Source: a virus. Taken from it: a DNA stretch of 28,133 nucleotides. Made by a program: the position numbers and the translations under genes. The DNA is taken from the IMG/VR virus record IMGVR_UViG_3300005722_000006, positions 1-28,133 of that record, one strand, 5' to 3'. Below are positions 7,346 to 23,658 of this stretch, piece by piece; position 1 is the first letter of the stretch; every line of letters begins with the position of its first letter. The notes under the pieces are model-generated. The model was given only the letters and a program-made list of their open reading frames with translations, did not search any database and was not told the DNA's origin.

Positions 7346-7609
7346 ATGAACTCAGCGACCCTCAACTGGAAAAAAGCACAGGAAACTATTCGCACTTATG
7401 AAAAGCGGAAAAAACGCCAAAATGAGTGGAAGGATAGCGAGATTTGGATTTTATGCAAATTACATTTTTTTTATGCGGATGAATTGACATACCGCCAAAT
7501 TGCCACGGAAGCAGCCAAGGTGATTGATAGATCACCAAACGCGATACGTACTAAGCTTGATAGATTAGTTAAGACTGAATCATCTACATGTGATCGCTTG
7601 TCTCACTAA
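7346..7609 (+). CDS. Small HTH (Myb/GcrA-like) protein, candidate late regulator
   Basis: An 87-residue basic protein. After a Lys/Arg-rich N-terminus, residues about 28-78 form three helices of Myb/SANT or GcrA type: DSEIWILCKLHFFYADE, then LTYRQIATEAAKVI, then the probable recognition helix DRSPNAIRTKLDRLV. It is preceded by a 30-base gap after the large terminase. Its last codons and stop lie inside the first copy of the 55-bp element (7597-7651). A DNA-binding protein encoded directly before the first putative late promoter could be the activator that recognises all three copies. That link is inference. Confidence 0.65.
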   Translation: MNSATLNWKKAQETIRTYEKRKKRQNEWKDSEIWILCKLHFFYADELTYRQIATEAAKVIDRSPNAIRTKLDRLVKTESSTCDRLSH

Positions 7610-7651
7610 ATTTTGCAGTGTTCCAGGTTGAATTGGCATACTTCAACTATG
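7597..7651 (+). promoter_or_regulatory. 55-bp repeated element, copy 1 (putative late promoter)
   Basis: The first of three gapless 55-bp copies (others at 11254 and 15863), identical in all three at 39 positions. Conserved blocks are CTTGTCTCA (element positions 1-9), TAAATT (11-16), GTGTTCCAG (22-30), TTG (32-34), TACTT (43-47) and the ATG (53-55). CATACT at positions 41-46 could be a -10 box that would start a leaderless transcript at the ATG. This copy also has a GTTGAA/TTCAAC inverted repeat (7627-7632 and 7642-7647). The first 13 bases overlap the upstream gene's end. Confidence 0.7.
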
Positions 7652-8806
7652 ACAAGATTTTCACAAAAAGACCCACAGTGGAGGCATGTACGGATTGACC
7701 CAGCTTACAGTACGTCAACCATCGGCAAAATTGGCTGTGTGGTTTCTAGTTTTGGCATGATGGTGGGTATGCGTCCTGATGAGGTGTCAAAGCGCGCGCA
7801 TTTTGTTGCTCTTGGCGGACATCCGTCAAAAGTTCATTGGGTGTGGAATCAAGCTGATAGATTTGCTGGTGTACAATATGTCACCAGAATGTGGACAGGT
7901 AACTGGGGCAGAGTAGTTGAAGGGGTTTCTAGGGGTGAGGGAGTGTTGATTCAGACTAATTCAACACAGGCAGGGTGGAATCATTGGCTACTCGCCCGCT
8001 CGATTGATGGTGACAACGTAGTCTGTTCTGACCCTGACACCTTACCAGTCAGTGAGGTAAAAATACACAAAAATAAAATCACAGGCTCTGCCCACTATAC
8101 TACTAACTCAAGCCCTACTATGCCCACCAAACCCTTCCACATCAATAATGAATCACAGCTGAATGAATGGCTAACCAAGTGGGGACTAGCTAGGATGCAG
8201 GAGATTAATAACTTACCAAAAGATGGATATGGATATACTATATCTGATCTCTATACCAGAATTGACACCTTGCGCGCGTCTATAATACAAGACGAAAAAG
8301 GGGATAAAGCAATTTCTGACAGGTTGGAACAGTATATCAATGACAATCAGCAACTGCGTACAGATAATCGTGAACTAGAATCGCAGCTTTCCGTATTAGA
8401 AAAACAGCTTGTTGAAGCTGCACAGGCAGCAAGTGTGGCAGCTAAAGAACTGAATATGCAATCACCAATTGATGCTCCGATTGCCGACCCAGAGGCTCAA
8501 ACTGCATTGAAAGAATGGGCTGCATCTAACTCTGAAAGAATTACCCAAAAACTAGATGAAAAAATAGACGAAGCCGTGGGCTTTGATGTTGATGTATCCA
8601 AGTCAAGTGGTTTTGGTGACGGAATTGGATGGATTGCACGCAAAATTATTGACCGTGCAACTTCCAGCCGTTTTGTTGGCTCTACCGTGGTGAGTAGTTG
8701 GATTGCAGCAGTTACCGAGGACGTAGCAGCCCAGATTGTAGCCGTGGGCTTGGTCTGGTGTATCTACATGATAACCGAAATTTTTACCAGATATCGTAAA
8801 AAATAA
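7649..8806 (+). CDS. C39-like cysteine peptidase lysin with C-terminal membrane anchor
   Basis: A 385-residue protein. Residues 1-150 are a papain/C39-like peptidase of the FSQKDPQW type found in phage lysins, with probable catalytic Cys30 (IGKIGCVVSS), His112 (WNHWLLARS) and Asp128 (VCSDPD). A helical, coiled-coil-rich middle (about 175-280) follows, and the protein ends with a transmembrane helix around 361-380 (IVAVGLVWCIYMI) and a basic tail RYRKK. The likely role is cleavage of peptide cross-links in the host wall, tethered to the membrane. The ATG at 7649 is chosen because it is the conserved end of the 55-bp element; a TTG at 7613 would place codons inside that element. A wall-degrading virion protein is an alternative. 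Confidence 0.72.
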   Translation: MTRFSQKDPQWRHVRIDPAYSTSTIGKIGCVVSSFGMMVGMRPDEVSKRAHFVALGGHPSKVHWVWNQADRFAGVQYVTRMWTGNWGRVVEGVSRGEGVLIQTNSTQAGWNHWLLARSIDGDNVVCSDPDTLPVSEVKIHKNKITGSAHYTTNSSPTMPTKPFHINNESQLNEWLTKWGLARMQEINNLPKDGYGYTISDLYTRIDTLRASIIQDEKGDKAISDRLEQYINDNQQLRTDNRELESQLSVLEKQLVEAAQAASVAAKELNMQSPIDAPIADPEAQTALKEWAASNSERITQKLDEKIDEAVGFDVDVSKSSGFGDGIGWIARKIIDRATSSRFVGSTVVSSWIAAVTEDVAAQIVAVGLVWCIYMITEIFTRYRKK

Positions 8807-8810
8807 CTGT

Positions 8811-9023
8811 ATGGACATCAACATCATCACAACCGCACTGATCAGCCTGGCAACAGGTGTAATTGGATATTTGATTCGTGATAATACGATGCTGCGTGAA
8901 AGTGTAAAGGCGTTGCGTGGCTTGGTTTTTATCCTTTCAGCTCGGATTTTGGATGATGACAAAGCAACGGATGAATCGAAAGACACCGCACGTAAGGCGG
9001 TTGAAGAATTGCAGAATATATGA
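8811..9023 (+). CDS. Holin-like small membrane protein
   Basis: A 70-residue protein with one N-terminal transmembrane helix (residues about 4-21, IITTALISLATGVIGYLI) and a charged helical C-terminus (LRESVKALRG, then DDDKATDESKDTARKAVEEL). It follows the membrane-anchored peptidase by 4 bases and overlaps the portal gene by 4 (ATGA). Position and topology fit a class III-like holin or spanin-like partner of the lysin. Small size and low complexity make the function tentative. Confidence 0.5.
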   Translation: MDINIITTALISLATGVIGYLIRDNTMLRESVKALRGLVFILSARILDDDKATDESKDTARKAVEELQNI

Positions 9024-11095
9024 ACTCATTACTTGATCAATTTTTGCGTGGAATCAATGACCTCTTCCGGGGTACGTTCCGTTCTGATGCGAATGTGCAG
9101 GAATTTACGCCGTACTCACGGCAGCGGTTGACGTGGGATAAGTATGATTTGATTGCTGATAGCAATGGGTATATAACCGAAGCTGTGATGCAATGGGGTG
9201 CCAATGTTGGTGATGCGGGTTGGAGGATTGAATCTTCATTTCCAACGAGATCTGACAGAAATAATAAAAAAATCAAAGAAAATATTGAGCAGATTTTAAC
9301 AGATTTGCAGTTTGACACTATGGTGGAGGAGATTACTAACATGATTGCAATTAAAGGCAGTACGTTTGTCGCTCTTAATTCTTTCGGGACTCCTAAGGTT
9401 TATGGTCCGGATCATTTTAATGTGCATGCCAATTCATCTGAAAAAGAGATTTTGTGGGTTCAAAAATTAGAAAAAGGAGTGCCTAGTCAAAAAAAGTTAA
9501 TACCTAATAAGGATGTATGGATCTTCAAAGATCCTGCGGGGGTACATCAGATGCTTCCTGCGCCGCGTATTGACCGAGCATACGAAAAAATTGTTGGTGA
9601 GCTACATATTTGGAAGGGTAACAATAACAAATGGGCAAATGGGCTGATTGATCCATTTTTGCTGATGCTTGAAGGCGGCGATGCGAAAGGTGCTGCGCTC
9701 AGTTACTGGGGTGGCAGCGCAAAAGGTGATAAAAAAAGTCGCTTAGAAAGGTTATTAGAACGTGTTAAGAGTTTATTTGTAGGGAGTAAACATGCTGGTG
9801 AACTGATTGCTTCACCTTTTATTAAGGACATCAAGCAAATTACTCGGACAGCGAAGGAAATGCTGGGTGAGGAATTTCTTAATAGGATTGAGAAAATTTA
9901 CGCAATAACGTGGAGCCTGAAACCTGAGGACTTAGTGGGTGGTGCTAAATATGACAATGCTACAGCATATAACCACCAACTGGGTGACAAGGTTGGTCGT
10001 AAAATTGAATCACAGGTTTCAGACTTTGTGAATAAATGGCTTTTAGTTAAATTTGGAGTCCAAACCAATAAATTTTTGAAATTTTCTTATAATAAGCCAC
10101 GCGATCCAAAGCAGGAAGCACGTCAGAAATTAATTTTAGATGCGTATGTGCAAAGTCACTCGCAATCCGTCCCACTTTTGACGCTTGACGAGACCCGTGA
10201 AGTGATCGGGTTTGGTCCGGCTCCAGATGAGTTGAAGAACCTCGCAACTGTGTCTACACAACCTGCTACTGAGCCGAATTCGGACACTGATGATGACTCA
10301 GATGATGAGCCTGACGGTAGCCAGCAAGTGCGAAATGCAGCGTTTTCGTCAAAAAAAACACCAACTGAGCGGGCGCTACGCTCAAGTGCATATAGCCGAA
10401 CAGAGACGGACGATGGAGGAAACAAAGTCAAGAAAGGATTTCTACCCCAATGGGAAAAAGCATTTACAAAGCAGCTAGAAAAGTTTGCACGTCACGCCAA
10501 AAAAGCTGATTCTCTGGATGACATTACCTTCGACGACTTCCCCAAAATTGAGACATTTTACTCGATGAATACCCTCAAGCGTGACCTGATGGGGTTTGCA
10601 AGAATTGGGTACGATGAATTTTTGAAAACCACAAAAAAGTCTCAGAATGCATCACGTTTGCCAGAGGTGCTTCGTAACCTGGTCAGTGAGCGTGCGGTGA
10701 ATTTGCTGCAAGGCGGTGATTTGTTTGATTCGGTGGATGTGCAGACATACAGTCAGGTTGAGACAATTCTGGATAACTCAGAAACGGTGCAGGAATTTGT
10801 AGATAACCTACTAGAAAAAATCCCAGGATTTGCTAAAAATCGTGCGGAGCTAGTAGCTGAGACTGAGGTTGGCAATGCAATTGAAGAGTCACGATTTGTG
10901 ATGTACGAGTCTGAAGGGTGGAAGTTCAAAAAATGGCTAACCGCACGTGATGAAATTGTACGCGATTCACACCAAGACAACGAACGTCAAGGCTGGATTC
11001 CGATTAATGAGCCATTTAGCAACGGCAACATGAAACCAGGTGAAGACGCTCGCTGTCGATGTACAGCTGTATATAGTCTGGAAGGTGAGGATTAA
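9020..11095 (+). CDS. Portal protein fused to MuF-like minor head protein
   Basis: A 691-residue protein. Residues about 1-420 match a siphovirus portal: an N-terminal region ending in YSRQRLTWDKYD, a core with GDAGWRIESSFPTRSD, and the DPFLLMLEGGDAKGAAL and LKPEDLVGGAKYDNA segments. After an acidic low-complexity linker (about 410-450), residues 460-691 form a Mu F / SPP1 gp7-type domain, with AELVAETEVGNAIEES and the family's C-terminal pattern RDSHQDNERQ, then GEDARCRCTAVY. Portal and MuF are normally two genes. The fusion ties one minor head protein to each portal subunit. It is the last gene of the transcription unit that starts at 7649. Confidence 0.85.
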   Translation: MNSLLDQFLRGINDLFRGTFRSDANVQEFTPYSRQRLTWDKYDLIADSNGYITEAVMQWGANVGDAGWRIESSFPTRSDRNNKKIKENIEQILTDLQFDTMVEEITNMIAIKGSTFVALNSFGTPKVYGPDHFNVHANSSEKEILWVQKLEKGVPSQKKLIPNKDVWIFKDPAGVHQMLPAPRIDRAYEKIVGELHIWKGNNNKWANGLIDPFLLMLEGGDAKGAALSYWGGSAKGDKKSRLERLLERVKSLFVGSKHAGELIASPFIKDIKQITRTAKEMLGEEFLNRIEKIYAITWSLKPEDLVGGAKYDNATAYNHQLGDKVGRKIESQVSDFVNKWLLVKFGVQTNKFLKFSYNKPRDPKQEARQKLILDAYVQSHSQSVPLLTLDETREVIGFGPAPDELKNLATVSTQPATEPNSDTDDDSDDEPDGSQQVRNAAFSSKKTPTERALRSSAYSRTETDDGGNKVKKGFLPQWEKAFTKQLEKFARHAKKADSLDDITFDDFPKIETFYSMNTLKRDLMGFARIGYDEFLKTTKKSQNASRLPEVLRNLVSERAVNLLQGGDLFDSVDVQTYSQVETILDNSETVQEFVDNLLEKIPGFAKNRAELVAETEVGNAIEESRFVMYESEGWKFKKWLTARDEIVRDSHQDNERQGWIPINEPFSNGNMKPGEDARCRCTAVYSLEGED

Positions 11096-11217
11096 CCAAT
11101 ATCAATTGGGATGATGGAGATTGTGGCACTGCTTTCGTCGTTGGTAATCGTGGTGATTGCAGCTGGTACTACCTCCTCTTTGTCTTGATATTCAGGCTCT
11201 GTTAGGTTGTGATTCAT
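11092..11217 (-). CDS. Possible small antisense gene between portal and protease
   Basis: A 41-codon minus-strand frame beginning MNHNLTEPEYQDKEEVV occupies the only real gap in the structural region. Its stop overlaps the portal stop codon. A TTGACA lies about 30 bases upstream on the minus strand, but the -10 is weak. The plus strand of the same DNA has a 25-codon hydrophobic frame (11111-11188, MMEIVALLSSLVIVVIAAG), so codon evidence cannot settle which, if either, is real. Unknown function. Treat as a candidate only. Confidence 0.25.
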   Translation of the reverse strand: MNHNLTEPEYQDKEEVVPAAITTITNDESSATISIIPIDIG

Positions 11218-11253
11218 GAGTAAAATCAATCAATTAAATCTATTTTTGTCAAT

Positions 11254-11308
11254 CTTGTCTCATTAAATTATGGGGTGTTCCAGGTTGGGATGGTTTACTT
11301 GGAATATG
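11254..11308 (+). promoter_or_regulatory. 55-bp repeated element, copy 2 (putative late promoter)
   Basis: The same length as copies 1 and 3, with CTTGTCTCA, TAAATT, GTGTTCCAG, GTTG and TACTT at identical spacing and ending on the ATG at 11306. It opens the protease-capsid-connector unit. Here the -10-like hexamer is TTTACT. The GTTGAA/TTCAAC hairpin of copy 1 is not kept, so the hairpin is not the conserved feature. Confidence 0.7.
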
Positions 11309-12373
11309 TTCAAACTGTTCAAAGCAACTGATGGTGGCAAGCCTGGACTGGCAGTCATGTTTGCTATGGGTAGTAATCAAGTCAAAGGGCTTGGTAATAT
11401 TGAAGTTACCAAAGAATTTTTTGCGGAGGATGGAGTGGTTACTGATCAGTCAAACGCAAAGGGTGTTCGCTGGAAAATGATTGGTTTTTCGGAGGAAAAA
11501 ATGCGAAACCAATTCTTTTTGCGGAATTGGCAAAACATGGCAGTCAGTGACAAGCGGGCAAAGTCTATTCTGGCAGATTTCAACCATAAGGGTGAAACAG
11601 GCGAGATGAAGTTCCTTACCAGTACATTCATGAGTAAAATGAAGCTCACCTTGAGTGAGGCTGGATTTCGCGAAATGGAGTGTGTGATTGAGTCCACTAA
11701 TGAGCAGGTTGTAGCTGAGTCCGAGAACATCACAGGGATTTCACTGGTACTTGAGCCTGATAACTGGAACGATTGGAAGTTTTTTGAGTGGGATGAGGAC
11801 GAGTATTTTATTTTTGCCAAAACCGCGAACATCCGCTCCTTCGCCCTGCTGCTTGGAATCACTCCAGGTTCTGGTGGCACAGGAATCATGGAGCAAGAGT
11901 ATTTCTCAACTATAAAGGGAAGCACAGCTGTCCCAAACCGGTCAGGAGACGACCCAAACTCTCAATCATTTAGCAATAATAACAATGAAACTGATATGAC
12001 TAAAGAAGAGATCACACAGATCGCAACTGAGGCAGCTGCTGCTGTATTTGCAGCCGAGCAAGCCAAAAACAAAATTCAGATCGAAATAGACAAATCTGAG
12101 TTCAAAGCTGGAACAGTCGTGGAATCAAATGGTAAGAAACTCACACTAATGGAAGTACCAGAAGGTTCTGATATGAGTGCCGAAGACCTAGCCGAAGCTG
12201 AAAAGCAAGCCCAGATGGCTGAAGACCAAGCGGCAGCGGCAGCCAAAAAATCTGCAGCAATGAGAAAAGCATTCGCGGATGCTGCGAATATTAATGATAA
12301 GAATGAACTACAGTCAGGCTCTGCTAAGATGAGTAAAGCCGAAAGTAGCCTCAAAGAAACTTTTAAATTTTAA
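11306..12373 (+). CDS. Prohead protease with C-terminal scaffold domain
   Basis: A 355-residue protein directly before the capsid gene. The first 200 residues fit an S78-like prohead protease: His94 in ADFNHKG and Ser146 in ENITGISLVLEP, a spacing close to the HK97-type His/Ser pair. The capsid-proximal part (from about 230) is an Ala/Glu/Lys-rich helical domain typical of scaffolds. An internal ATG (11996) begins a separable scaffold. The start at 11306 is the conserved end of the 55-bp element; an in-frame ATG at 11270 lies inside that element and is rejected. The family is assigned from position and motifs. Homology is not obvious by eye. Confidence 0.68.
   Translation: MFKLFKATDGGKPGLAVMFAMGSNQVKGLGNIEVTKEFFAEDGVVTDQSNAKGVRWKMIGFSEEKMRNQFFLRNWQNMAVSDKRAKSILADFNHKGETGEMKFLTSTFMSKMKLTLSEAGFREMECVIESTNEQVVAESENITGISLVLEPDNWNDWKFFEWDEDEYFIFAKTANIRSFALLLGITPGSGGTGIMEQEYFSTIKGSTAVPNRSGDDPNSQSFSNNNNETDMTKEEITQIATEAAAAVFAAEQAKNKIQIEIDKSEFKAGTVVESNGKKLTLMEVPEGSDMSAEDLAEAEKQAQMAEDQAAAAAKKSAAMRKAFADAANINDKNELQSGSAKMSKAESSLKETFKF
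11996..12373 (+). other. Possible nested scaffold start inside the protease gene
   Basis: An in-frame ATG (codon 231 of the protease gene) begins MTKEEITQIATEAAAAVF and gives a 125-residue helical, Ala-rich, charged polypeptide of scaffold character. It follows an Asn/Ser-rich linker. Lambda C/Nu3 shows this arrangement. With no Shine-Dalgarno in this phage, internal initiation cannot be judged from sequence; proteolytic release is equally possible. Confidence 0.3.
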
Positions 12374-12377
12374 TTTT

Positions 12378-13616
12378 ATGCCTCAAGTACAATTTAATAA
12401 GTTACAAACATTTCGAGAAATTTCTGCTTCTCGAAGACAAGGAATAAGTGAAGCTGTGGATATGCTAGGGTCTTTCCGCCACGGAAAAGGAATCCCTATT
12501 GGAGCTTTATTTTCAGCAATTGATACTGCGGCTGGAAAGTCCGAAACATGGTTGAAAGACATGGCGACTTCATTCTCAATGGAAAAATATGGATATGTCA
12601 AGCCAGAGGTGACTTCACAGTTTCGGCAATTCAGCGAAGTAGAGAAGGAAGCTCAAAAAACGATGTCCAAAACTTTCGCTGTTGATACTGACGCAGTCAT
12701 TGAGACTACTATTTTCCCAGTACTGGAAGGTCTTACACGACAGTCAAACATTCTGTCGATGTGCCAGGTGCAGTACGAACTTGACCACAAAGACTTGGCT
12801 GAATGGGATGTAGAAAAAGACGCAGAGAATCTTGCAAAAGGTGATAAAGGTACTTCAGCTGATGATGTGCTTCGCGACTCACTGACCTTGTCAAACAAGA
12901 CAAAAAAGGTGCAAGCATCCACATCTATCCACGAGAGAGACTTGATGGATCTTGACCCTGTTGAGGTTGGCATCTTCTTGGCTCGTATTCAATCGCGTAT
13001 CGAGTGGGAGTTGCAGTCAAACATTCTGTACTCAGATGGTAGTTCTAACCAATTCAGCCGGGGGCTTATCAACGCAGTTGGTGGCACTGATTCGGAGAAT
13101 CACATTGGATCTATACCTGTAACACTTTTGGATGTTGGGATTTCTGATGATGTTGATGCTCTTGATTATGTTGATGGTCAACTATCAAAAAGGTTGTCAG
13201 GTGAAGAGGAATCCAAGTATGCAATTTTAATGAATCGCAATTCTATCTCTCGAGTTCGCCGAGCATTCAACCCCACATCTGGTGATCGCTACTTTAGACC
13301 TGGTGACTCTCTGATGATCAATGGGAAGGCAATCGAAAACGTACAGCGTATGGATGATAATCAGTTCTTATTTATGCACAAAGGAAGTTACCAAGTCATC
13401 ATGGCAAAAGACACATCGTTTATTAACGACGATGGTGTTTTGGACATCAAAGGTGGTATTATTACTTATGTTGCTCGAATTTATGCTGATGGCGCCCCAC
13501 GGATGGCATTCAAACACACCAATGGTCGAACCTTATCAACTGGGAATGAGACACCAAACAATGGTGATCGAAACTACTTCCGACATGGGTCGTTCCTCAA
13601 CGCATATGCATCATAA
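12378..13616 (+). CDS. Major capsid protein (HK97 fold)
   Basis: A 412-residue protein located after the protease/scaffold and before the connectors. An N-terminal helical delta-like segment (1 to about 100) precedes a body with features of HK97-fold capsids: FPVLEGLTRQSNILSM and YELDHKDLAEWDVEKD at the domain entry, the DPVEVGIFLARIQSRIEWEL spine helix, the SKYAILMNRNSISRVRRAF P-domain helix, and the C-terminal FINDDGVLDIKGGIITYVAR and GAPRMAFKHT strands. It would form the icosahedral shell after cleavage by the upstream protease. It starts 5 bases after the protease stop. Confidence 0.85.
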   Translation: MPQVQFNKLQTFREISASRRQGISEAVDMLGSFRHGKGIPIGALFSAIDTAAGKSETWLKDMATSFSMEKYGYVKPEVTSQFRQFSEVEKEAQKTMSKTFAVDTDAVIETTIFPVLEGLTRQSNILSMCQVQYELDHKDLAEWDVEKDAENLAKGDKGTSADDVLRDSLTLSNKTKKVQASTSIHERDLMDLDPVEVGIFLARIQSRIEWELQSNILYSDGSSNQFSRGLINAVGGTDSENHIGSIPVTLLDVGISDDVDALDYVDGQLSKRLSGEEESKYAILMNRNSISRVRRAFNPTSGDRYFRPGDSLMINGKAIENVQRMDDNQFLFMHKGSYQVIMAKDTSFINDDGVLDIKGGIITYVARIYADGAPRMAFKHTNGRTLSTGNETPNNGDRNYFRHGSFLNAYAS

Positions 13617-13628
13617 TGACATAGCTTT

Positions 13629-13961
13629 ATGAATTACTTACACAAAAGAGGTCTGGCTAAAATTTCAGGGGTTGCTCGCAGCTGTGGGTTCTCTGTGGAA
13701 GTTGAGGGTGAAACAGTTTTACTGACTGCTTTAACCGCCAAACAGCAAGAGGATAGCCTCAAAGAAGCACTCAAAGAAGCTAGAGCTGCTGCTGAAAAAG
13801 CACGTGTAGCAGAGCTTGAGCAAAAACCAAATGCCGAAACGTCTGATCCAGAACTAACCCCTGATGAACAGGAATCTGCTGAACCTGCCAAAAAAGTCCA
13901 GGAAACTGAGAAAAAAGCAGATAAGCCAAAACCGCAACCCACCAACAAACCCAAAAAATAG
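13629..13961 (+). CDS. Small capsid-associated protein of unknown function
   Basis: A 110-residue protein immediately after the capsid gene. The first 45 residues look like a small folded domain (ISGVARSCGFSVEVEGETVL). The rest is a highly charged coiled-coil and disordered tail rich in Lys, Glu, Ala and Pro (AKKVQETEKKADKPKP and similar). The position between capsid and connector is often occupied by head decoration or assembly factors. No function can be given. Confidence 0.6.
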   Translation: MNYLHKRGLAKISGVARSCGFSVEVEGETVLLTALTAKQQEDSLKEALKEARAAAEKARVAELEQKPNAETSDPELTPDEQESAEPAKKVQETEKKADKPKPQPTNKPKK

Positions 13962-13967
13962 AAACTG

Positions 13968-14642
13968 ATGTCCGTACTTGATGCACCTACACTGCTGACT
14001 GACTTTGGATATTCATCTGAGGATACTCAGTTGGATAATTACCTTACTGACGCAATTGCGTTTGCTGAGGCGGTGATGTGCAGGCATGGTCTGATTTTCT
14101 ATGCGCCTGGAAATCCACCAACCGCTACAACCAAAAAATTTTCCACGAGTGATCCGCATGTGTGGGTTGGTTATGCTGAATTGATTTCATCCGTGGTCAA
14201 AAAAACCAAGTTCACCCCTGAATCTGAAACGCTGACTGATGGTAAGGATTATGAATCCAACATGTATGCACCAGGTGTGCCTGATGTTTCACTGATCACT
14301 TCACTGGATTTATATGAGCCATTGAAAAGCAACCAGTATCTGGAAGTCACTGGGGTTTTTGCGTTTGGCGATGAAAGCAAGTTTCCAGCCGACCTCAAAA
14401 TCGCGCTGAAATCTACGCTTCAACAATTCGCTGAATACTTTATAAGCAAAAAGAAAAAAGCTGCCAACGGTGGTCAAACAGCCTCACAAATCAAAGTGGG
14501 TAAAATTGACATCAAGAACGGTACGGCAAAGGACGATATTACGTCAATGTACAATGGAATAGACCCAGGCGACCTGCAGTCTATATTCAGCGTTAATCAT
14601 AAATTTAATCAGGTCTTGATGGAATATGTCCCTATTGTCTGA
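13968..14642 (+). CDS. Head-tail connector (gp6-like adaptor)
   Basis: A 224-residue protein. The N-terminus LTDFGYSSEDTQLDNYLTDAIAFAEAV is the helical pattern of head-tail adaptors (HK97 gp6 / SPP1 gp15 type), which stack under the portal ring. The position, third after the portal and second after the capsid, agrees. A beta-rich middle and a C-terminal helix (ALKSTLQQFAEYF) make it larger than typical 100-residue adaptors. It overlaps the next gene by 17 bases. Confidence 0.65.
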   Translation: MSVLDAPTLLTDFGYSSEDTQLDNYLTDAIAFAEAVMCRHGLIFYAPGNPPTATTKKFSTSDPHVWVGYAELISSVVKKTKFTPESETLTDGKDYESNMYAPGVPDVSLITSLDLYEPLKSNQYLEVTGVFAFGDESKFPADLKIALKSTLQQFAEYFISKKKKAANGGQTASQIKVGKIDIKNGTAKDDITSMYNGIDPGDLQSIFSVNHKFNQVLMEYVPIV

Positions 14643-14970
14643 TCAACTTGCCGATACTGGATTTGAAGTCCGAACTACTGACATGGTTCGGTCAAAGTCT
14701 GGTGGGAAAGTCAAGACCATGACCACAATCGGTGAAAACGTGGACATCCACATTCAACCTTTGGATGGTGATATTACGCTTGGTACAATTTCTGGCAAAT
14801 CTTACTTAATGATTATTGAACGGAGTGCCTTGACTACTGACCTACCTGATAGCGCTCAGATCGTGTTTGGCACGGATATTTATGACATTCTCTCACTCGA
14901 AGAATACCCCACAGTGCAGATGCTGCCTCGTCACTATCAACTGGTGACTATGAAGGTTTTGAAGAATTAG
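14626..14970 (+). CDS. Head closure / head-tail joining protein
   Basis: A 114-residue beta-rich protein (GENVDIHIQPLDGD, then IMIIERSA-like strands and DIYDILSLEEYPTVQML) in the position of the head-closure protein (SPP1 gp16-like). It would plug the connector and dock the tail. The assignment rests on size, fold type and gene order. It overlaps the adaptor gene and is followed 9 bases later by the gp10-like gene. Confidence 0.55.
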   Translation: MSLLSDQLADTGFEVRTTDMVRSKSGGKVKTMTTIGENVDIHIQPLDGDITLGTISGKSYLMIIERSALTTDLPDSAQIVFGTDIYDILSLEEYPTVQMLPRHYQLVTMKVLKN

Positions 14971-14979
14971 AATTTTTTT

Positions 14980-15405
14980 ATGCTCTCAATAAAGACATCA
15001 GGATTTGATAAATTGCGTGTGAAATTAAGCAAAAAACCTACAGACCCTCTACGGAATGCTGTATTTGAAATTGCAGCTCTGGTGGAGAAAAAAGCAAAAT
15101 TGAATATCAATCAGAGAATATATGGTCAACCGCCATCTCCGCGATATACTAGATCAGGTGCAGCACAAAAGGGCTTTTTGAATCGCCAACTAGACACACA
15201 AGGTCTGCGTCGTGAAGTGATGAGTGATGCTCGTCTGAGTTATAATCCAAATAACAAACGGAATACCAACTACACTCCTTTTCTGAATCAGAATAAAAGA
15301 ATCAAACGTTTCAACACTGGATTCTGGGATGATGCCGTTGATGATGGACGCACAGCATCAGGCGGAATAATTCAAAAACATACGAAAAAGCACTATGGCA
15401 AGTAA
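14980..15405 (+). CDS. HK97 gp10-like head-tail protein
   Basis: A 141-residue basic protein. It begins with SIKTSGFDKLRVKLSKKP followed by a helix LRNAVFEIAALVEKKAKLNI, the usual opening of the gp10 family of head-tail or tail-completion proteins, and then a Gly/Pro/Ser loop (GQPPSPRYTRSG). The C-terminal part is Asn/Arg/Lys rich. Gene order (closure, gp10, tail terminator) matches many siphoviruses. It overlaps the next gene by 11 bases. Confidence 0.65.
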   Translation: MLSIKTSGFDKLRVKLSKKPTDPLRNAVFEIAALVEKKAKLNINQRIYGQPPSPRYTRSGAAQKGFLNRQLDTQGLRREVMSDARLSYNPNNKRNTNYTPFLNQNKRIKRFNTGFWDDAVDDGRTASGGIIQKHTKKHYGK

Positions 15406-15859
15406 TCCGATCCCCATCCTCAAATCACAAATCAAGCAGATCATCGATACCATTGAATGGGAAGGTCAGACCTTTGCCGCGCGTGCATTAGCTGGCAATC
15501 AGCATGTGTTTACTCACCCTCTTGTGGACTTTGCTTTGGATCCGTTGGTTGAGATATTGTACCGCTCCACAGCCTCTCGTGCTATTGATACAATGACGAA
15601 TGATAACATACACCAATTCACTGTACGGATTTTTTATGAAATTGACCCTACCAATTTTGATGAGGGTGTGGATATTTTGGAAGAGCTTGGCTTTTTGATA
15701 GTTGATACAGTCAAAGATTATATGTCAGGAGTTCCTGGGTGCAAGCAATTGATGCCTGCGGACGGTGCTGAGGTGCGGCAGTACGGTGATAATATGCTAA
15801 CTAAAGACGTGATTTTATCAGCGGTGACTGAATCTGGTCGACAGCGATTAGTACTCTGA
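15395..15859 (+). CDS. Tail terminator / tail completion protein
   Basis: A 154-residue protein with the alpha-beta pattern expected of tail terminators: an N-terminal helix (ILKSQIKQIIDTIEW), strands with NIHQFTVRIFYEID, a long helix (VDILEELGFLIVDTVKDYM) and a final strand. It would cap the tube and fix tail length together with the tape measure. The call is based mainly on position between the gp10-like gene and the tube gene. It is the last gene before the third 55-bp element. Confidence 0.6.
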   Translation: MASNPIPILKSQIKQIIDTIEWEGQTFAARALAGNQHVFTHPLVDFALDPLVEILYRSTASRAIDTMTNDNIHQFTVRIFYEIDPTNFDEGVDILEELGFLIVDTVKDYMSGVPGCKQLMPADGAEVRQYGDNMLTKDVILSAVTESGRQRLVL

Positions 15860-15862
15860 CTT

Positions 15863-15917
15863 CTTGTCTCATTAAATTTTTAGGTGTTCCAGATTGAGGT
15901 GACATACTTCAACCATG
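15863..15917 (+). promoter_or_regulatory. 55-bp repeated element, copy 3 (putative late promoter)
   Basis: It starts 3 bases after the tail terminator stop and ends on the ATG at 15915. All conserved blocks are present at the same spacing, with CATACT as the -10-like hexamer. In the frame that stays open through copies 1 and 2, this copy has an in-frame TGA, showing that the conservation is of DNA or RNA rather than protein. It opens the tail unit. Confidence 0.72.
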
Positions 15918-16163
15918 CCAAAAGAAACCCAAAAAGAGCAGAAAACGATCACGCGTCTGTTCACACGTATGCCTGGTGGTCCAGTTTCTATCAGTGGATC
16001 CAGCGAGGACAAAATTCAACGAAAAGCACGCCGAATGATGGGCATCAAGATGAGAGAATCCAAGGAAAAGTCCCTGGATATTACTGGAGATGGAAAGTTT
16101 GATGCCGCTGACAAATCCAAAGCTGGATCGGTTCTAGCAACCCCAACTTCAAAATCTGAATAA
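15915..16163 (+). CDS. Small protein with dockerin/EF-hand-like calcium loop
   Basis: An 82-residue basic protein. After a Lys/Arg-rich N-terminus with RMPGGPVSISGS, residues near 60-71 read DITGDGKFDAAD, a complete dockerin-type EF-hand loop with acidic or oxygen ligands at loop positions 1, 3, 5, 9 and 12. It is the first gene after the third 55-bp element and lies 2 bases before the tube gene, so it is probably made in quantity and may be a virion component. The function is unknown. A single loop alone would be half of a usual dockerin. Confidence 0.6.
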   Translation: MPKETQKEQKTITRLFTRMPGGPVSISGSSEDKIQRKARRMMGIKMRESKEKSLDITGDGKFDAADKSKAGSVLATPTSKSE

Positions 16164-16165
16164 CT

Positions 16166-17218
16166 ATGTCTCAATCACAACTAGGTGCACAGCAATTTTT
16201 TGCGATCGCGTTTGAAAGCACTCCATACACTGCCGAAGCTGTGCCGACGATTACTTTACCAGTTAGTAATAACACTATGCAGATGAGGGACAAAAAAGCG
16301 GATGAAAAGATACATTCTGGCTCTGTAAATGCCAACTACGATCAATACCGCATTAAAGAGTGGGCAGAGGGTGAAATCACCCAAAAGCTTGATGTAAAAT
16401 ACGCAAAATACTTGATTTACCTGGCAACAGGTGACGTAACTGCCGTACAAATTCCATCGACGACTGCGTATAGACACACATACAAAATCAAAGATAGTGC
16501 TGAACTCCCTACGTTTACTGCATTTTATTCTAGAGGTGCAGCTGGTGTGTATCGTGCGAAAGGATGCATGATAAACGAACTGACAATTGAAGTCACGGAG
16601 TCTGATGCAACGATTACAGCTAGTATCTTATCAATCCAGGAAGAGAAAATGACAGGTTCTGATGAGACATCAATTAATGCCGCCATCTCCTATGGTGAGC
16701 CAGAAGTCAAATATAACTTTGGAAATCTTGTTGCCAAATATGCCTCTGATGTTGCTGGGTTGGATGCTGCAACTGATGAGCTTAATCTGAAACCTGGATT
16801 CAAGTTCATCGTCAAAAACAATTTAGATTATGATTGGTCTAGTGGTAATACTGCAACGAAGCACCTTATTGCCAAGCGAATTGAAAGATTAGGCGGTACT
16901 CCTGAATACGAAATACAAAGTTCTGGAGAAACGTTACGAAGTGCTGTTAGCCTGGACTCTTGGAGAACTGACGAATTTCGAGCATATGAGTTTGATTTGA
17001 CTTCAATTTCTGCAGCTCCTGTTGGCGACTCTACAGTTCAACCTTCTTTAACATTCACCGTTGCACGTGCCAAGATGGATGCAACTATATCAAACACAGG
17101 TGTTGATGACTATTTGAGCCTGGATATGAATTTTCCTTTTTTAGCCACAAGTGTTAGTGACGGATATGCCATCAAAATCGACACAATCACAACGGTACCA
17201 GACTACACCGCTTTATAA
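16166..17218 (+). CDS. Major tail tube protein
   Basis: A 350-residue beta-rich protein in the place of the siphovirus tube gene, just before the tail chaperones. Visible features are the N-terminal QLGAQQFFAIAFEST, a strand-rich core (EWAEGEITQKLDVKYAKY), INELTIEVTESDATITASIL, and a C-terminal LSLDMNFPFLAT with KIDTITTVPDYTAL. Its length is greater than that of the smallest tube proteins, so an added Ig-like or decoration domain is possible. It would stack in rings around the tape measure. Confidence 0.75.
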   Translation: MSQSQLGAQQFFAIAFESTPYTAEAVPTITLPVSNNTMQMRDKKADEKIHSGSVNANYDQYRIKEWAEGEITQKLDVKYAKYLIYLATGDVTAVQIPSTTAYRHTYKIKDSAELPTFTAFYSRGAAGVYRAKGCMINELTIEVTESDATITASILSIQEEKMTGSDETSINAAISYGEPEVKYNFGNLVAKYASDVAGLDAATDELNLKPGFKFIVKNNLDYDWSSGNTATKHLIAKRIERLGGTPEYEIQSSGETLRSAVSLDSWRTDEFRAYEFDLTSISAAPVGDSTVQPSLTFTVARAKMDATISNTGVDDYLSLDMNFPFLATSVSDGYAIKIDTITTVPDYTAL

Positions 17219-17242
17219 GGTAGTCACCTAATTTTTATTTTT
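17218..17242 (+). terminator. Weak hairpin plus T-rich tract after tube gene
   Basis: AGGT-AGTC-ACCT (17218-17229) followed by a T-rich stretch ending in TTTTTT. The 4-bp stem is short. It could act as a partial terminator that lets the tube gene be expressed more than the tail chaperones downstream. Confidence 0.2.
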
Positions 17243-17246
17243 TCTT

Positions 17247-17621
17247 ATGAACGAAAATGCTACTCAACCGACCTTACCTCAGGATGATGGGGTTCAGAAC
17301 CAGTCTTCAATTTATCGCTTTAATTCCAACTTCGAGTTGACTCGTAAACAAGAAATTGACCTGTCCAGAATTCGACACGCTGGCGTCCAGTATTTCAGCG
17401 AAAACGGTAAAATATTCCCAAAAAACCCTGAACGTGCTAACGAAAACTTGATGCATGTTCAGAATGCGCTAGTCGGACTTTACTATTCACTCCCAGAGTT
17501 TGAAGTCTTATCACTTACAAAAACTAAATTTGATGAATTGTACGAACCAATACAACAAATTGACCCACTGGGTTTAAGGAAGGAACAAGAGAAGGAGGAG
17601 GAGAATCAGAAAGCCAAGTAA
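17247..17621 (+). CDS. Tail assembly chaperone G (zero-frame product)
   Basis: A 124-residue helical protein located between the tube and the tape measure, the universal place of the lambda G-type chaperone. The core (EIDLSRIRHAGVQYFSENGK, then LMHVQNALVGLYYSLPEFEV) is followed by a Lys/Glu-rich tail. Near its end lies a GGGTTTA slippery heptamer that gives the longer GT product. It binds the tape measure during tail assembly and is normally absent from virions. It starts at ATG 17247 after a T-rich stretch. Confidence 0.82.
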   Translation: MNENATQPTLPQDDGVQNQSSIYRFNSNFELTRKQEIDLSRIRHAGVQYFSENGKIFPKNPERANENLMHVQNALVGLYYSLPEFEVLSLTKTKFDELYEPIQQIDPLGLRKEQEKEEENQKAK

Positions 17622-17908
17622 TCTCTGACGCAGCTGCACTCTATGTTTGGAAAGTTGGTCGTGGTCGTGAAATTCCTAAAAAGTGGGTGCCTGACTTTCC
17701 ACTTGATGAGTACATGCTGATCAATGATGTGCTGCTAACTAGGGAGAATATAACCCTGACTGAACTACAAAATCTACCAGTTGAAACCTACCACAAAGTT
17801 GCCAGAATTTTGACTCAATTTGAGAGGGGTCAGGAAGAAAAACGCAAAGCTGATGAAGCTGACCGGGAAGCCAAACTTGCAGCCGCAGAATCTAAATCCA
17901 AACGCTAG
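17247..17908 (+). CDS. Tail assembly chaperone GT (-1 frameshift fusion)
   Basis: The predicted fusion is 110 residues of G followed by 110 residues from the -1 frame, 220 in all, joined at 17576. The T part reads VISDAAALYVWKVGRGREIP and KKWVPDFPLDEYMLIN, then a helical segment and a charged coiled-coil end rich in Lys, Glu and Ala. The T region has no good start codon of its own: a GTG at 17687 would cut off the well-formed ALYVWKVGRG part, which supports expression by frameshift. This is the conserved siphovirus G/GT mechanism. GT links the tape measure to the tube subunits. Confidence 0.85.
17570..17576 (+). promoter_or_regulatory. -1 ribosomal frameshift slippery site GGGTTTA
   Basis: GGGTTTA is a perfect X-XXY-YYZ heptamer, in the correct phase (zero frame ..G GGT TTA). 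After a -1 slip, translation continues at AAG (17576-17578) into an open frame that runs to the TAG at 17908. The overlap between the two frames is about 45 bases. No clear downstream hairpin was found; a purine-rich run (17591-17600) follows. Confidence 0.85.
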
Positions 17909-17913
17909 AAAGT

Positions 17914-20073
17914 ATGAATGAAACGCTAAGTATCGCAATCAATGGCTACGACAACGCAAGTGGCACGATGAAGCAGGTCATGGCGAGTACTGAGCAGTTG
18001 GCGAAAGAAACTGGGATGCTGCGTGGTGCCTATGGAAAGTTAAACAAAATGATGCTGGATGTTGCCAAAGTTGGCATGCTTGGACTTGTTGGTGTGGTTG
18101 GGGCTGTCGGCGTAGCCTCCTTCAACTTGAGTGCGGATATACAAGATAGTCAGGGTCAAATACAAGCCGAACTTGGGGTTACTGCTGATGAAGCCTATCA
18201 TCTAAGTGGTGTAGTTGAGGAAGTTTGGGGTGACAATTTTGGCGAGAACGTGGGTGATGCCACTGATGTGATTATTGCTTCACGCCAGCAGATCCAGGGT
18301 CTTGCTGATGAAGACCTGCCTGCAGTTGCCAGGGGTACGATTGCGATTCGTGATGCGTTTGAGCAGGATGTAAATGCGACTACTCAAGCAGCTGGGGTTC
18401 TGATGGAGGAGTTTGGGGTGTCATCTGAGCATGCAATGAACATGCTGGTAAATGGTTTTCAGGTTGGGCTTGATAACTCTGGTGACTTTTTGGACACGAT
18501 CAACGAATACGGCGGAATTTTTGCTGAAGGTGGCGCTAGTGCTGATCAGTTTTTTAACATTTTAGCCAGCGGTCAGCAGAATGGCGTGCTGGGTACGGAC
18601 AAAATTGCGGATTCTTTCAAGGAACTAAATGCTATTATTCTTGACGGTTCTGATGCACGTGCTGATGCCTTGGATGCAATTGGACTGAATAGTGCTGATT
18701 TCCTTTCCAACCTTTCCACTGGTAAAATGTCAACGATGGAAGCCTTTGACGAAATTACTGGTGCGTTATCTGGTACTGAGGATGAGGCAGTCCGTAATCA
18801 GGCAGCTGTGGCTTTGCTTGGGACAATGGTGGAAGACATGGGGTTTGATTCAATCGCTGCAATTGATTCTATGAGTGACAAGTGGGGTGATAACAGCGGA
18901 GCGGTTGAGGATTTACACGCTCAGTATCAGGACTTTTGGTCTATGGCAGATGGTCTTTGGAGGCAGCTACTGCTTGAAGTCAAACCATACACTGATGAGC
19001 TTTTAGCCCTAGCAAATGAAAATATGCCGATGCTAGAAAATGGTATCAGTCAGGTTTCGGATGTGATTGGAATTTCTATTGGACTGCTTCGTGATTCTGC
19101 CAATTTCTATATGGAAAACAAAAGTGCAATTGACACTCTCCTTGTCGTTGTCGGTTCCATGACAGCTGCCTGGTATCTCGCAAATACTGCAATGGCGGTT
19201 CACGCTAGTGCTACACTTTGGTGGAGTGGCGTAACCAAAGGTGCTACACTGGCACAGACTTTATTTAATGCTACTATGATGGCAAGTCCAATTGGATGGG
19301 TTACATTGTTGATTGGTGGGCTAATTGCGGCTGTTGTCTTGCTTTGGATGAATTGGGATTCTGTGACTGCCTGGATGATGGGTGCGTGGCAAGGTACGAT
19401 TGACTTCTTTGGGTGGTCATGGCAATGGCTACAAGCAAACTTTTTCAGTCTGCTGATGAATGGGTTTTTGATTTTAACTGGTCCTATCGGCTGGCTGTAT
19501 CTTACGTGGCAAAATAATTTTATGGGCATTCAGGATATTACTGGTGGAGTAATTGGTAATGTCATGGGTTTTTTTGATCGACTGGGTACAAAGGCTTTTG
19601 CAGTGAAAGACCAGGTTGTGGGTGCATTTCAGGGTCTGGGACATGGAATCAAAGGTGCTATCCGCTGGGCTTTGCAAGGTGTTGTGGACAACTTCAACGT
19701 ATTTATTCGTGGATTTAATGACATGTCTGGTGCAATTGGTGGCCCTACAATTACGCCCCTGGTTGTCCCTCAATTCGCCTCCGGTGTCCGAAACTTTGAA
19801 GGGGGTCCAGCGATTATCAACGAAGCTGGTGCGGAGGCACTAAGGGTTGGAACTACTACCTACTTACCACAGGGAACTGATGTGTATTCCGCCGCTGAAA
19901 CTCGGCAGATGCAACGAAGTGAGGATCGCAAGAGTGGTGGAAATCAACCCATAATAATCAAAATAGATGCACGTGGATCTATAATTGACGATCGTTCCCT
20001 CGCTGAATGGTTCCGCAAAATCAAGCGAATTGCTGCCCAGCAAGGGTTCAAAGTTGAAGGAATAACCGCATAA
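17914..20073 (+). CDS. Tail tape measure protein
   Basis: A 719-residue protein. The N-terminal half has the features of the phage minor tail/tape measure family: ATDVIIASRQQIQGL, FEQDVNATTQAAGVLMEEFG, MNMLVNGFQVGLD, and GTDKIADSFKELN with a following regular helix pattern. Hydrophobic helices occur at about 54-74 and in 405-475 (WVTLLIGGLIAAVVLLWM and neighbours). These are expected for membrane insertion during DNA entry. The C-terminus has FASGVRNFEGGPAIINEAGAEA. Length sets tail length; at the commonly used 0.15 nm per residue this implies a tail near 110 nm. Confidence 0.92.
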   Translation: MNETLSIAINGYDNASGTMKQVMASTEQLAKETGMLRGAYGKLNKMMLDVAKVGMLGLVGVVGAVGVASFNLSADIQDSQGQIQAELGVTADEAYHLSGVVEEVWGDNFGENVGDATDVIIASRQQIQGLADEDLPAVARGTIAIRDAFEQDVNATTQAAGVLMEEFGVSSEHAMNMLVNGFQVGLDNSGDFLDTINEYGGIFAEGGASADQFFNILASGQQNGVLGTDKIADSFKELNAIILDGSDARADALDAIGLNSADFLSNLSTGKMSTMEAFDEITGALSGTEDEAVRNQAAVALLGTMVEDMGFDSIAAIDSMSDKWGDNSGAVEDLHAQYQDFWSMADGLWRQLLLEVKPYTDELLALANENMPMLENGISQVSDVIGISIGLLRDSANFYMENKSAIDTLLVVVGSMTAAWYLANTAMAVHASATLWWSGVTKGATLAQTLFNATMMASPIGWVTLLIGGLIAAVVLLWMNWDSVTAWMMGAWQGTIDFFGWSWQWLQANFFSLLMNGFLILTGPIGWLYLTWQNNFMGIQDITGGVIGNVMGFFDRLGTKAFAVKDQVVGAFQGLGHGIKGAIRWALQGVVDNFNVFIRGFNDMSGAIGGPTITPLVVPQFASGVRNFEGGPAIINEAGAEALRVGTTTYLPQGTDVYSAAETRQMQRSEDRKSGGNQPIIIKIDARGSIIDDRSLAEWFRKIKRIAAQQGFKVEGITA

Positions 20074-20074
20074 T

Positions 20075-20449
20075 ATGCCTCTTGCACAACTCAAACTTGG
20101 AATATCTGAAGCGACCCTGGTGGTGATGCCGTCGCCGAATTTGCCTGATGGTATGCCACGCGGAATTTCTATCAAACGAATTGAGGAAGAGTCGGTAGAT
20201 AATCAGCGGTCTATCACATATCTCGGTGCCGAAAAAGAGGACATTACCCTAGAGTTCACGAAGTTACGTGAGGCTGACTTTGCCCTGATCCGTCAATACT
20301 GCAACACTGGTGAGTATTATTGCGTGATAGAAAGTTCATTGCGTCAGTATTTTACTGGCTGGGTTGAGGTGCGCCTGGATTCAATAACCGAAGACATGCA
20401 CACCCCAGATTTTCGCAGAGATATGACTGTAATTTTAAGACAATTATAA
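20075..20449 (+). CDS. Small tail protein (distal tail or tip)
   Basis: A 124-residue beta-rich protein located between the tape measure and the large tail-tip protein, where distal-tail or tip-adaptor proteins lie. Segments such as SIKRIEEESVDNQRSITYLG, DITLEFTKLREADFALIRQY and YFTGWVEVRLDSI alternate strands and a helix. It starts 1 base after the tape measure stop and ends 1 base before the next ATG, so the three genes are closely coupled. The family is not recognised. Confidence 0.6.
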   Translation: MPLAQLKLGISEATLVVMPSPNLPDGMPRGISIKRIEEESVDNQRSITYLGAEKEDITLEFTKLREADFALIRQYCNTGEYYCVIESSLRQYFTGWVEVRLDSITEDMHTPDFRRDMTVILRQL

Positions 20450-20450
20450 T

Positions 20451-23400
20451 ATGTCCTCATCAATCAATTCGTACGCCAAACGCGTCAAGCATATGCTCCC
20501 AGAAGTGGGTATTGCAACTGATTATGTGGACGAAAAGGTGTATGCGGCGATGAAGGGGAATCTATACCGTCGGTTAGTCACGGTAGATAACACTGGCAAA
20601 ACTGCAAAGTCAAACTATTTGGTACGGATAGTACTCGATACCGCAACGATCCACGACGAAAATAAGTGTAGCTATACGTTTGCTGATCTTCGCGTGTACG
20701 ATTCTGATGGGGTCACGCCACTGAATTTTTATGTAGATGCTCCAAACTTGCAGTGGACACAGGTGTACGTCCGCATTCCAGACCTCCCTGCAACCTCAAA
20801 AATAATATATTTGGAATATGGCAATCCAGGACTGGTGAATACCAGCTCGCCCTCATCGACCCTTGGTTCCGTCTTTGCTGACCTTACTGCTTGGTTTAGC
20901 TGCACAGAAACGAATCATGCCCATGTCGGTGCTAAAACAGCTACTGGAGATTTTCCAAACTGGCGAAATAAAGCCATTAAAACTAACTACGCTGTGCAGT
21001 TTGAGGGGAACACTGGCGGTCAAAATTTTTACTCTGCGAATAGGTGGGGAGGGTTGCAAGCTCGTCAGTATGTGCGGTTGACAACACCTCGTCGAGTTAT
21101 ACTTGCTTCAACACCATATTCTGTATTCATTGCGGAGGAGCGGTCGCTGAACGATGCGAAATGGCTGGTTGCGGACTCAGGTGCGGCTACTACCAATAAT
21201 CGACTGGCAATTGGCTATAGTTCTACCACGAATTTTCGGTGGAGTCAACAGGGTAACGACTTGAATTATACGGTGCCAGCTTTTGCCATAGATCAAAAAA
21301 GATTGTGGAGTTGTGTGCTTGATTCATCTGGTCATACGCTGAGACTGAACGGGTCGCAGGTCGCCTCCAACACAAACACCACCGCGATTGCCACCGCAAA
21401 TCGGCTCAGAATTGGCACATTAGACGCATCCCTTGGTTCAGATGCAACAAATTATATAGGAGATATCATTGTAATTGCACGTGAGATTACCTCTGCCGAA
21501 CGTAGTGCCATTGAAGAATATATGAATGTGAAGCACCAGATCTATGATACGCACGACTTCCCATCAATTACAGTAGGCGGCGAAACTTCAATCCCTGATT
21601 CGGCTGAGTTCACGTACAAAAGCTATGCTCCGATTGGGACTTGGTCAACCACGGTCAAACTGTCCGATTCCAAGTTAATCCACGGTATGGCACCAGCCGC
21701 TGGTGATGCTTCGATTATTCCATTCCTTGGCAAGCAGATTGCCATGGGTACAGATGCAGAGAGCTGGGATGCTTCAACCCAATCGAATCAAAAAATGATA
21801 CTTCGTCACTGCCGCGAGATTGAAGTGACTGATGCTGGTACGGTTGATACCGTCTCAATAGACCGAACCGTAGGCGAAGTAAATCGTGGGCGACTTGACC
21901 GATACGAGCTGGTGAACGATGCCGAATCGACCGTGTATGAGATAACTCCTGATGACTTTATTGCCTTTGATTTTCTGGTTCAGGACAAAGACAATTTTGA
22001 ATTTTCCACTTCATACCTGAGATTCTTGAAGGATTCATCGAATTATTATCAGGTGGACTTGGTCAAAAATGTCAATGCAGTGACGGCAAATGTGGCAAGT
22101 CTGGTTATGATTCCTATATCATCATTCATTCAGACTGGCACACTAATTTGGGCTGATGTTGTGGATATGCAAGTGCGGCCACGGACTTCAACAGGGACTA
22201 CTCAAACAGTCAATTACGAGAATTTCCGCGTGGTCAAGAATATAGAATCGGATGAGTTTGCCTACAATTTACCAGTATGCACTGGAAGCTGGGTCAGTGA
22301 GGATAACCGCTCAACATGGTTTCGTCAAATCAGTTCAGTCGGTCGTCTCAGAGGGCAGCAAAATGCAAATCGCGCTGTGACCGTAGATTTTGACGATTAC
22401 TTGACGATTGTCCGCTCGATGAAGTTTCGTGATTTTGATTCATTCCCTGATCGGTTTGCAATATATTATGCAATTGGTGACTTATCTGATTACTCACAGT
22501 GGTACAATTACTACCTGCGCAAAGTCTTGGGATTCTTCCTTCCGTCATCGATGATTGATGTTGATTTGACACCGCTGGCTGGGGATTCGTCGGTTTTTAC
22601 CACTTCTAGATTTTATTTTTTGATTCAGCAGCAAGATACAGTTGGTGAGATTATCGACGCACTGCTTGCTCCGATGCTTGGATACCTCACGTACGATCCA
22701 ACTTTGGGCAAGTTCGTGGCACGTTCTGGATACAAAACGTGGGATGGTGAGAATATCCCAACGCCATATGACTTGCCGACTAGCAAACTAATAAGTTATT
22801 CCACTGACTCTGGGTCAGACGACTTGGTGTATAATTCTATCGAGATGTCCAGATTGGAGGATGAAGTTGGTCCCTCTAGCCTGAATACCAAGACTGTTGC
22901 TTGGTTGATTGATGCGCAATATCAAATTCCAGCTGAATCAACGATTACTGCCTTTATCGAAACAAACATATCAGGAAGTGAAAAAATATATCTATTGGAT
23001 AACGCATTTTGGCATGGGTACAATGTTGGAACTAATGCAGATTCAACATCATACAATAATACAGGTGTCAGTATAGATTCAGTCAATATCGTGGATGATA
23101 AAATTGCGGTGACAGTCACTAACACGAATTTTTCTGAACGGTACTTGCGTCAAATCCATATTCAAGCTGACTCACACCGTCTGTTTCGCCGTGCCTTTGA
23201 GAGTGAATACGACAATCGCGCTATTGACTTTTTATTGCAAGATGAAGCATCAATCCAAAAACACGGTCGCAAACCCTACATATTCAACCAACTCTACTCC
23301 TTCAACGATTCAACGTATTGCCAGTTATTTGATGCGTTCTTGAAGCAATTCGCCAAGCCATCACGCGTGCATAGTCTGAAGCTGATGAAGGATCCCAACA

Positions 23401-23630
23401 TTCGTTTTGGTGCGGTTGTCCGATTCCGTAGCAGCCGTGGTCGGATTGTGACCGGGTTCGTCATTGAATGCACTGAGTATGCTAATGAATCCACCTTTGG
23501 ATTGGATGTGAAGTTGGTTGAGATATTTATTGATGAATCTGCTTTGATTGGCAACTTCCTGACGTTTACTGATGGAACCCCTATGCAGCGTGCCGCAGGA
23601 GTAGGCTTTTTACTCCGAGCTGGAGATTAA
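20451..23630 (+). CDS. Large tail-tip protein with DUF2341 and LamG-like domains
   Basis: A 1059-residue protein. Residues about 35-130 match the DUF2341 pattern: LYRRLVTVDNTGK, ADLRVYDSDGVTPLNFYVD, and RIPDLPATSKIIYLEYGNP. Residues about 145-365 look like a concanavalin/LamG jelly roll (WRNKAIKTNYAVQFEGN, LRLNGSQVASN, YIGDIIVIAREITSAERSAIEEY). The C-terminal half, from about 480, is tail-hub-like, with TVGEIIDALLAPMLGYLTYD and a final RVHSLKLMKDPNIRFGAVVRFRS region. The most likely role is the baseplate hub with an adhesin module for binding the host surface. DUF2341-LamG pairs are common in surface proteins. Confidence 0.75.
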   Translation: MSSSINSYAKRVKHMLPEVGIATDYVDEKVYAAMKGNLYRRLVTVDNTGKTAKSNYLVRIVLDTATIHDENKCSYTFADLRVYDSDGVTPLNFYVDAPNLQWTQVYVRIPDLPATSKIIYLEYGNPGLVNTSSPSSTLGSVFADLTAWFSCTETNHAHVGAKTATGDFPNWRNKAIKTNYAVQFEGNTGGQNFYSANRWGGLQARQYVRLTTPRRVILASTPYSVFIAEERSLNDAKWLVADSGAATTNNRLAIGYSSTTNFRWSQQGNDLNYTVPAFAIDQKRLWSCVLDSSGHTLRLNGSQVASNTNTTAIATANRLRIGTLDASLGSDATNYIGDIIVIAREITSAERSAIEEYMNVKHQIYDTHDFPSITVGGETSIPDSAEFTYKSYAPIGTWSTTVKLSDSKLIHGMAPAAGDASIIPFLGKQIAMGTDAESWDASTQSNQKMILRHCREIEVTDAGTVDTVSIDRTVGEVNRGRLDRYELVNDAESTVYEITPDDFIAFDFLVQDKDNFEFSTSYLRFLKDSSNYYQVDLVKNVNAVTANVASLVMIPISSFIQTGTLIWADVVDMQVRPRTSTGTTQTVNYENFRVVKNIESDEFAYNLPVCTGSWVSEDNRSTWFRQISSVGRLRGQQNANRAVTVDFDDYLTIVRSMKFRDFDSFPDRFAIYYAIGDLSDYSQWYNYYLRKVLGFFLPSSMIDVDLTPLAGDSSVFTTSRFYFLIQQQDTVGEIIDALLAPMLGYLTYDPTLGKFVARSGYKTWDGENIPTPYDLPTSKLISYSTDSGSDDLVYNSIEMSRLEDEVGPSSLNTKTVAWLIDAQYQIPAESTITAFIETNISGSEKIYLLDNAFWHGYNVGTNADSTSYNNTGVSIDSVNIVDDKIAVTVTNTNFSERYLRQIHIQADSHRLFRRAFESEYDNRAIDFLLQDEASIQKHGRKPYIFNQLYSFNDSTYCQLFDAFLKQFAKPSRVHSLKLMKDPNIRFGAVVRFRSSRGRIVTGFVIECTEYANESTFGLDVKLVEIFIDESALIGNFLTFTDGTPMQRAAGVGFLLRAGD

Positions 23631-23658
23631 CTTTTGTACTTTAATTTTTGAAAAAAAT

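Follow-up and report, generated by a model that had tools for sequence, protein, structure and literature searches.

A repeated 55-bp element at three late gene starts of a Patescibacteria prophage: probable coordinated leaderless promoters

Organization of the prophage and its late units

The window, that is, the whole stretch of DNA analyzed here, is a virus record of 28,133 bases and holds a siphovirus-like prophage that encodes a serine recombinase. A tRNA-Cys(gca) gene on the minus strand (26200–26273) overlaps the 3′ end of the recombinase gene and is the likely attachment site; at the window's left end, no repeat matching it could be found. The next gene after the recombinase and the tRNA is a host-like dus gene, whose product finds its matches mostly in Patescibacteria (about 50% identity) and groups with two sequences, L013 and L020 (97/98), at about 50 to 56% identity, which places the host, an ultra-small uncultured bacterium, no finer than Patescibacteria. 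At the other end, repeated palindromes (AGTCAAGT/ACTTGACT, at 621–714) lie between a leftward gene (59–601) and the rightward early genes, and look like the repressor operators of an immunity region. Also on this side of the window are two adjacent small genes (763–1139), tandem paralogues without family matches whose products both start MTVTEA, and a replication-initiator-like gene containing a 25-nt repeat (1494–1518 and 1623–1647; 92%) that could represent origin iterons.

The late genes form three units, all on the plus strand. Late unit A (7649–11095) encodes a lysin-like protein, a small membrane protein, and the portal; late unit B (11306–15859) encodes protease-like and capsid-like proteins and connectors, all named without family matches; and late unit C (15915–24681) encodes an EF-hand-like protein of 82 aa, the tail tube, the tape measure, and further tail proteins. 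Family matches back the terminase large subunit (TerL), portal, tape measure, and tail tube (the last with a match just under the cut-off), and the names lysin, protease, and capsid come from gene position and the original prediction for this DNA. A short open reading frame (ORF) between the portal gene and late unit B (11111–11188; MMEIVALLSSLVIVVIAAG...) may encode a membrane peptide.

A 55-bp element before each late unit

One copy of a 55-bp element stands, on the plus strand, before each of these units: at 7597–7651, before the putative lysin gene (7649–8806); at 11254–11308, before the putative head protease gene (11306–12373); and at 15863–15917, before the gene for the 82-aa protein (15915–16163) and the tail genes. 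No element precedes the methyltransferase and terminase genes, which are located upstream of copy 1. Direct reading of the sequence agrees with the original prediction that the three copies align without gaps, are identical in 39 columns, and each end on an ATG, and the gene layout bears out its assignment of each copy to the head of a separate unit (lysin-portal, protease-capsid-connectors, and 82-aa protein-tube). The invariant columns read CTTGTCTCAnTAAATTnTnnnGTGTTCCAGnTTGnnnTGnnnTACTTnnAnnATG. Identity in 39 of 55 columns compares with a maximum of 15 (mean, 3.7) among 400,000 random triples of window positions. When aligned on the ATG, the upstream regions of the three copies are identical pairwise at 39 to 43 of 52 bases, versus about 29 to 31 of 52 reached by unrelated upstream pairs in about 90 TerL-matching viral loci, where most of the pairs scoring higher seem to reflect gene duplications or simple repeats.

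The element is confined to these three places within the window, as had been claimed: a pattern search allowing up to 3 mismatches matches only the three copies (and nothing in 100 shuffles), and a weight-matrix scan of both strands gives them 82 to 86 bits, with the next best site at −11.8. Its edges are sharp, with identity falling to 0 or 1 of 10 columns just upstream and to 3 and then 1 of 10 columns downstream. Copy 3 occupies the whole intergenic gap (the upstream gene stops at 15859). Copy 1 shares 13 nt with the end of the 87-aa ORF in front of it, whose stop codon lies inside the element, a point on which the original prediction needs correction. Copy 3 contains a TGA that would stop translation within the element, and a coding function across it was thus ruled out.

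The promoter core

Each of the three copies has TGn and then a hexamer, CATACT or TTTACT, which is separated from the ATG by 6 nt. These putative extended −10 sequences, all on the plus strand, are TGGCATACT in copy 1 (7634–7642), TGGTTTACT in copy 2 (11291–11299), and TGACATACT in copy 3 (15900–15908), and the pattern TGN[CT][AT]TACT-N6-ATG occurs in the window only there. The −10-like hexamers and their distance from the ATG had been noted previously and are confirmed in every copy; the conserved TGn, which had not been pointed out, places TG one base before the hexamer in 3/3 copies, as in extended −10 promoters. The hexamers agree with TATAAT at just 4 of 6 positions. A standard −35 is lacking, again as predicted, with none at a spacing of 16 to 18 nt (best, 3/6). 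A −10 that ends about 6 nt before the start codon is the arrangement of a leaderless promoter: as the usual distance from a −10 to the transcription start is 6 to 7 nt, the predicted start site is the A of the ATG or a position about one base away, and the late mRNAs would then be leaderless.

Other genes in the window and in related hosts appear to share this habit. None of 21 window genes has a Shine-Dalgarno sequence as judged by duplex energies, and 81% of window genes have T at −1 before the ATG. Two Patescibacteria genomes assigned to the same class, G003 (L210–L221) and G390 (L255–L270), combine little Shine-Dalgarno with a strong peak of −10 boxes (TANNNT) exactly 6 nt before the ATG, indicating widespread leaderless starts in one class of Patescibacteria: the boxes precede 27 of 144 unit-head genes in G003 (4.5 expected; P = 7e−14) and 30 of 137 in G390 (3.6 expected; P = 3e−19), with P values that assume independence among genes and build on simple ORF calls. 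About 40% of these boxes carry TGn (11/27 in G003 and 13/30 in G390). The genome nearest by Dus, G001, has a weak peak at the same gap (16 versus 8 expected), and the peak is absent from the very AT-rich genome G008. Because −10 boxes peak at exactly this gap in two genomes, leaderless starts look routine for related hosts; and because the host boxes share the gap and often the TGn, the core of the phage element appears, from sequence, to be a host-type leaderless extended −10 promoter. In a limited literature search, we found no earlier description of Patescibacteria as habitual users of leaderless transcription. More broadly, phages are known to make leaderless transcripts (PMC5312081), and about one in five bacterial species is predicted to use leaderless transcription (PMC9581028).

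The upstream block and a candidate activator

Upstream of the core, each copy holds a conserved block at about −52 to −19 (with the A of the ATG as +1), located on the plus strand at 7597–7630 in copy 1 (CTTGTCTCAnTAAATT...GTGTTCCAGnTTG), 11254–11287 in copy 2, and 15863–15896 in copy 3. Conservation in the block runs over two stretches, −52 to −37 and −31 to −19, and its motifs include CTTGTCTCA and GTGTTCCAG, the latter at −31 to −23, 10 bp before the −10. Its 33 bp amount to about three helical turns and sit where a −35 would be; the block is probably an activator site replacing the −35. We found in it no convincing dyad (best, 57% of 7 pairs) and no convincing tandem half-sites.

The likeliest activator, by gene position, is the candidate helix-turn-helix (HTH)-like protein of 87 aa encoded on the plus strand at 7346–7609 by a gene that follows terL and immediately precedes copy 1. 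Its HTH assignment derives from family matches that are all sub-threshold: a D5-like regulator (phrog_323; E = 0.017), BlaI (E = 0.014), a sigma-factor profile (E = 0.06), and Sigma70_r4 (E = 0.1). The predicted structure is all-helical with moderate confidence (pLDDT, 67), and neither a Foldseek search with this model nor a sequence search of the PDB returned anything significant.

Comparison with known promoters

The element had been said to look like a new phage late promoter. This holds for its sequence, whereas the strategy, in which a phage box replaces the −35, is known from P2 (Ogr) and T4 (MotA); judged by sequence, the element would work like P2 late and T4 middle promoters while being a member of neither class. 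In P2, four late operons share a TGT-N12-ACA box that is bound by Ogr, a small phage activator (PMC3931495). The likeness lies in several late operons under one common box, but the P2 box is absent upstream in the window element, and the 87-aa protein has too few cysteines for the CX2CX22CX4C zinc motif of Ogr and no match to Ogr. In T4 middle promoters, a MotA box centered at −30 replaces the −35, the host −10 is kept, and about half carry TGn (PMC2988021). The window element likewise has a sigma-70 type −10 and no −35, and its GTGTTCCAG is placed similarly to the MotA box; the MotA box itself (TGCTT core, 12 ± 1 bp before the −10) is absent, however, the block reaches to −52, and the predicted start is leaderless. 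The T4-type late promoter (TATAAATA) was not found in the element either. Host promoters of the two Patescibacteria genomes resemble the element in a −10 ending 6 nt before the ATG, in TGn, and in the lack of a Shine-Dalgarno sequence, but those at the 6-nt gap have no counterpart of the 33-bp block, and between one-quarter and one-third of them have a TTGACA-like −35.

Interpretation of the element

We interpret the three copies, with a probability of roughly 0.68, as coordinated leaderless late promoters of the prophage, one before each of the three late transcription units, in which a phage-activated block replaces the −35. Host RNA polymerase would recognize the extended −10 (TGn-YWTACT), and a phage activator, most likely the 87-aa protein, whose gene immediately precedes the first late promoter, would bind the phage-specific block; a common activator acting on this block is proposed to switch on the three units together. 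The element offers a specific, testable late promoter together with a candidate activator, a means of finding transcription units in such prophages, and possibly an inducible promoter for Patescibacteria, a group with few genetic tools. Our limited literature search turned up no publication on how Patescibacteria phages control their late genes.

Among other explanations, the block might be the operator of a phage repressor, with host polymerase alone using the extended −10 and the late units silent in the lysogen. Extended −10 promoters in principle need no activator, repeated phage-wide operators are known, and the conserved block of the G390 element described below lies within the −35/−10 spacer, a classic place for an operator. 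Yet the early region has different palindromes, those at 621–714, that resemble repressor operators, and the late block has no dyad, reaches −52, and replaces a −35 rather than overlapping one, all of which makes an operator unlikely. We regard as very unlikely that a phage sigma-like factor recognizes the element without a classical activator, the 87-aa protein then being sigma region 4-like or a sigma-appropriation factor: although the weak Sigma70_r4 and sigma-factor matches would suit such a role, as would the position of GTGTTCCAG, where the T4 MotA box sits (PMC2988021), the matches are not significant, 87 aa contain no region 2-like part, and the −10 looks host-type.

The location of the copies at module borders would also suit a recombination sequence kept there as a linker without promoter function, but the sharp 3′ end exactly on the ATG, the constant extended −10 at 6 nt, and the conservation in blocks within otherwise diverged copies render this highly improbable. 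Scarcely credible is a transcribed RNA leader at the head of each late operon, acting as a riboswitch-like or translational device. Its location before start codons would be apt, and copy 2 alone folds well (z = −3.0), but copies 1 and 3 fold poorly (z = −0.7 and +0.7, respectively) and the three folds differ; with no RNA fold common to the copies, this reading was rejected, and a DNA-bound activator fits better than an RNA device.

Relatives and a second element of like layout

The element is known from one genome, and the collections searched hold no relative with the same late genes. Neither the viral collection nor bacterial and archaeal genomes (searched with the exact pattern) nor a set of 380 Patescibacteria genomes yielded a copy; the sole matches in exact-pattern scans of viral and genome contigs are due to chance and lack an ATG in the right place. 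Searches with the capsid, the portal, and the G390 portal found no relatives. TerL relatives are up to 47% identical over the full length and have in common with the window only TerL, the methyltransferase, TerS, and portal fragments, and no analogous triple element was seen in them. Within Patescibacteria genomes, TerL matches numbered 2/380, 1/286, and 0/6.

A prophage in G390 (L250:853–9690, equal to G390:C1:34552–43389), with a TerL about 29% identical to that of the window, has its own late element, GGTATAAAAATTGTTG, at gene starts. When at most 2 mismatches are allowed, its late region holds six copies, each of them on the coding strand, and a scan at 3 mismatches finds 7 (0.35 expected by chance). 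The element takes the form (TTGACA)-n-GGTATAAAAATTGTTG-n-[TC]ANNNT-N6-ATG: GTTG-n-hexamer-N6-ATG is present at 2754, 4178, and 9675, and the gap is 9 nt at 958. The −10 assignments were read by eye; the hexamers CAACCT and TACGCT fit [TC]ANNNT, and TAAGAG (at 2754) lacks the final T. Like the window element, the G390 element combines a phage-specific block, TGn, and [TC]ANNNT, 6 nt before the ATG in three copies and 9 nt in one; unlike it, the G390 element has an unrelated block sequence and usually keeps TTGACA with an 18-nt spacer (4/6 copies), so that it may be controlled differently. In terms of sequence, it is an independent case of the same layout and no homologue.

We suggest only tentatively, as a proposal more doubtful than probable, that Patescibacteria phages generally control their late genes by a phage-specific box and their own small activator, built on the leaderless extended −10 of the host. 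If so, these would constitute a class of late promoters giving transcripts with no 5′ UTR, of which the window and G390 elements would be the first two examples.
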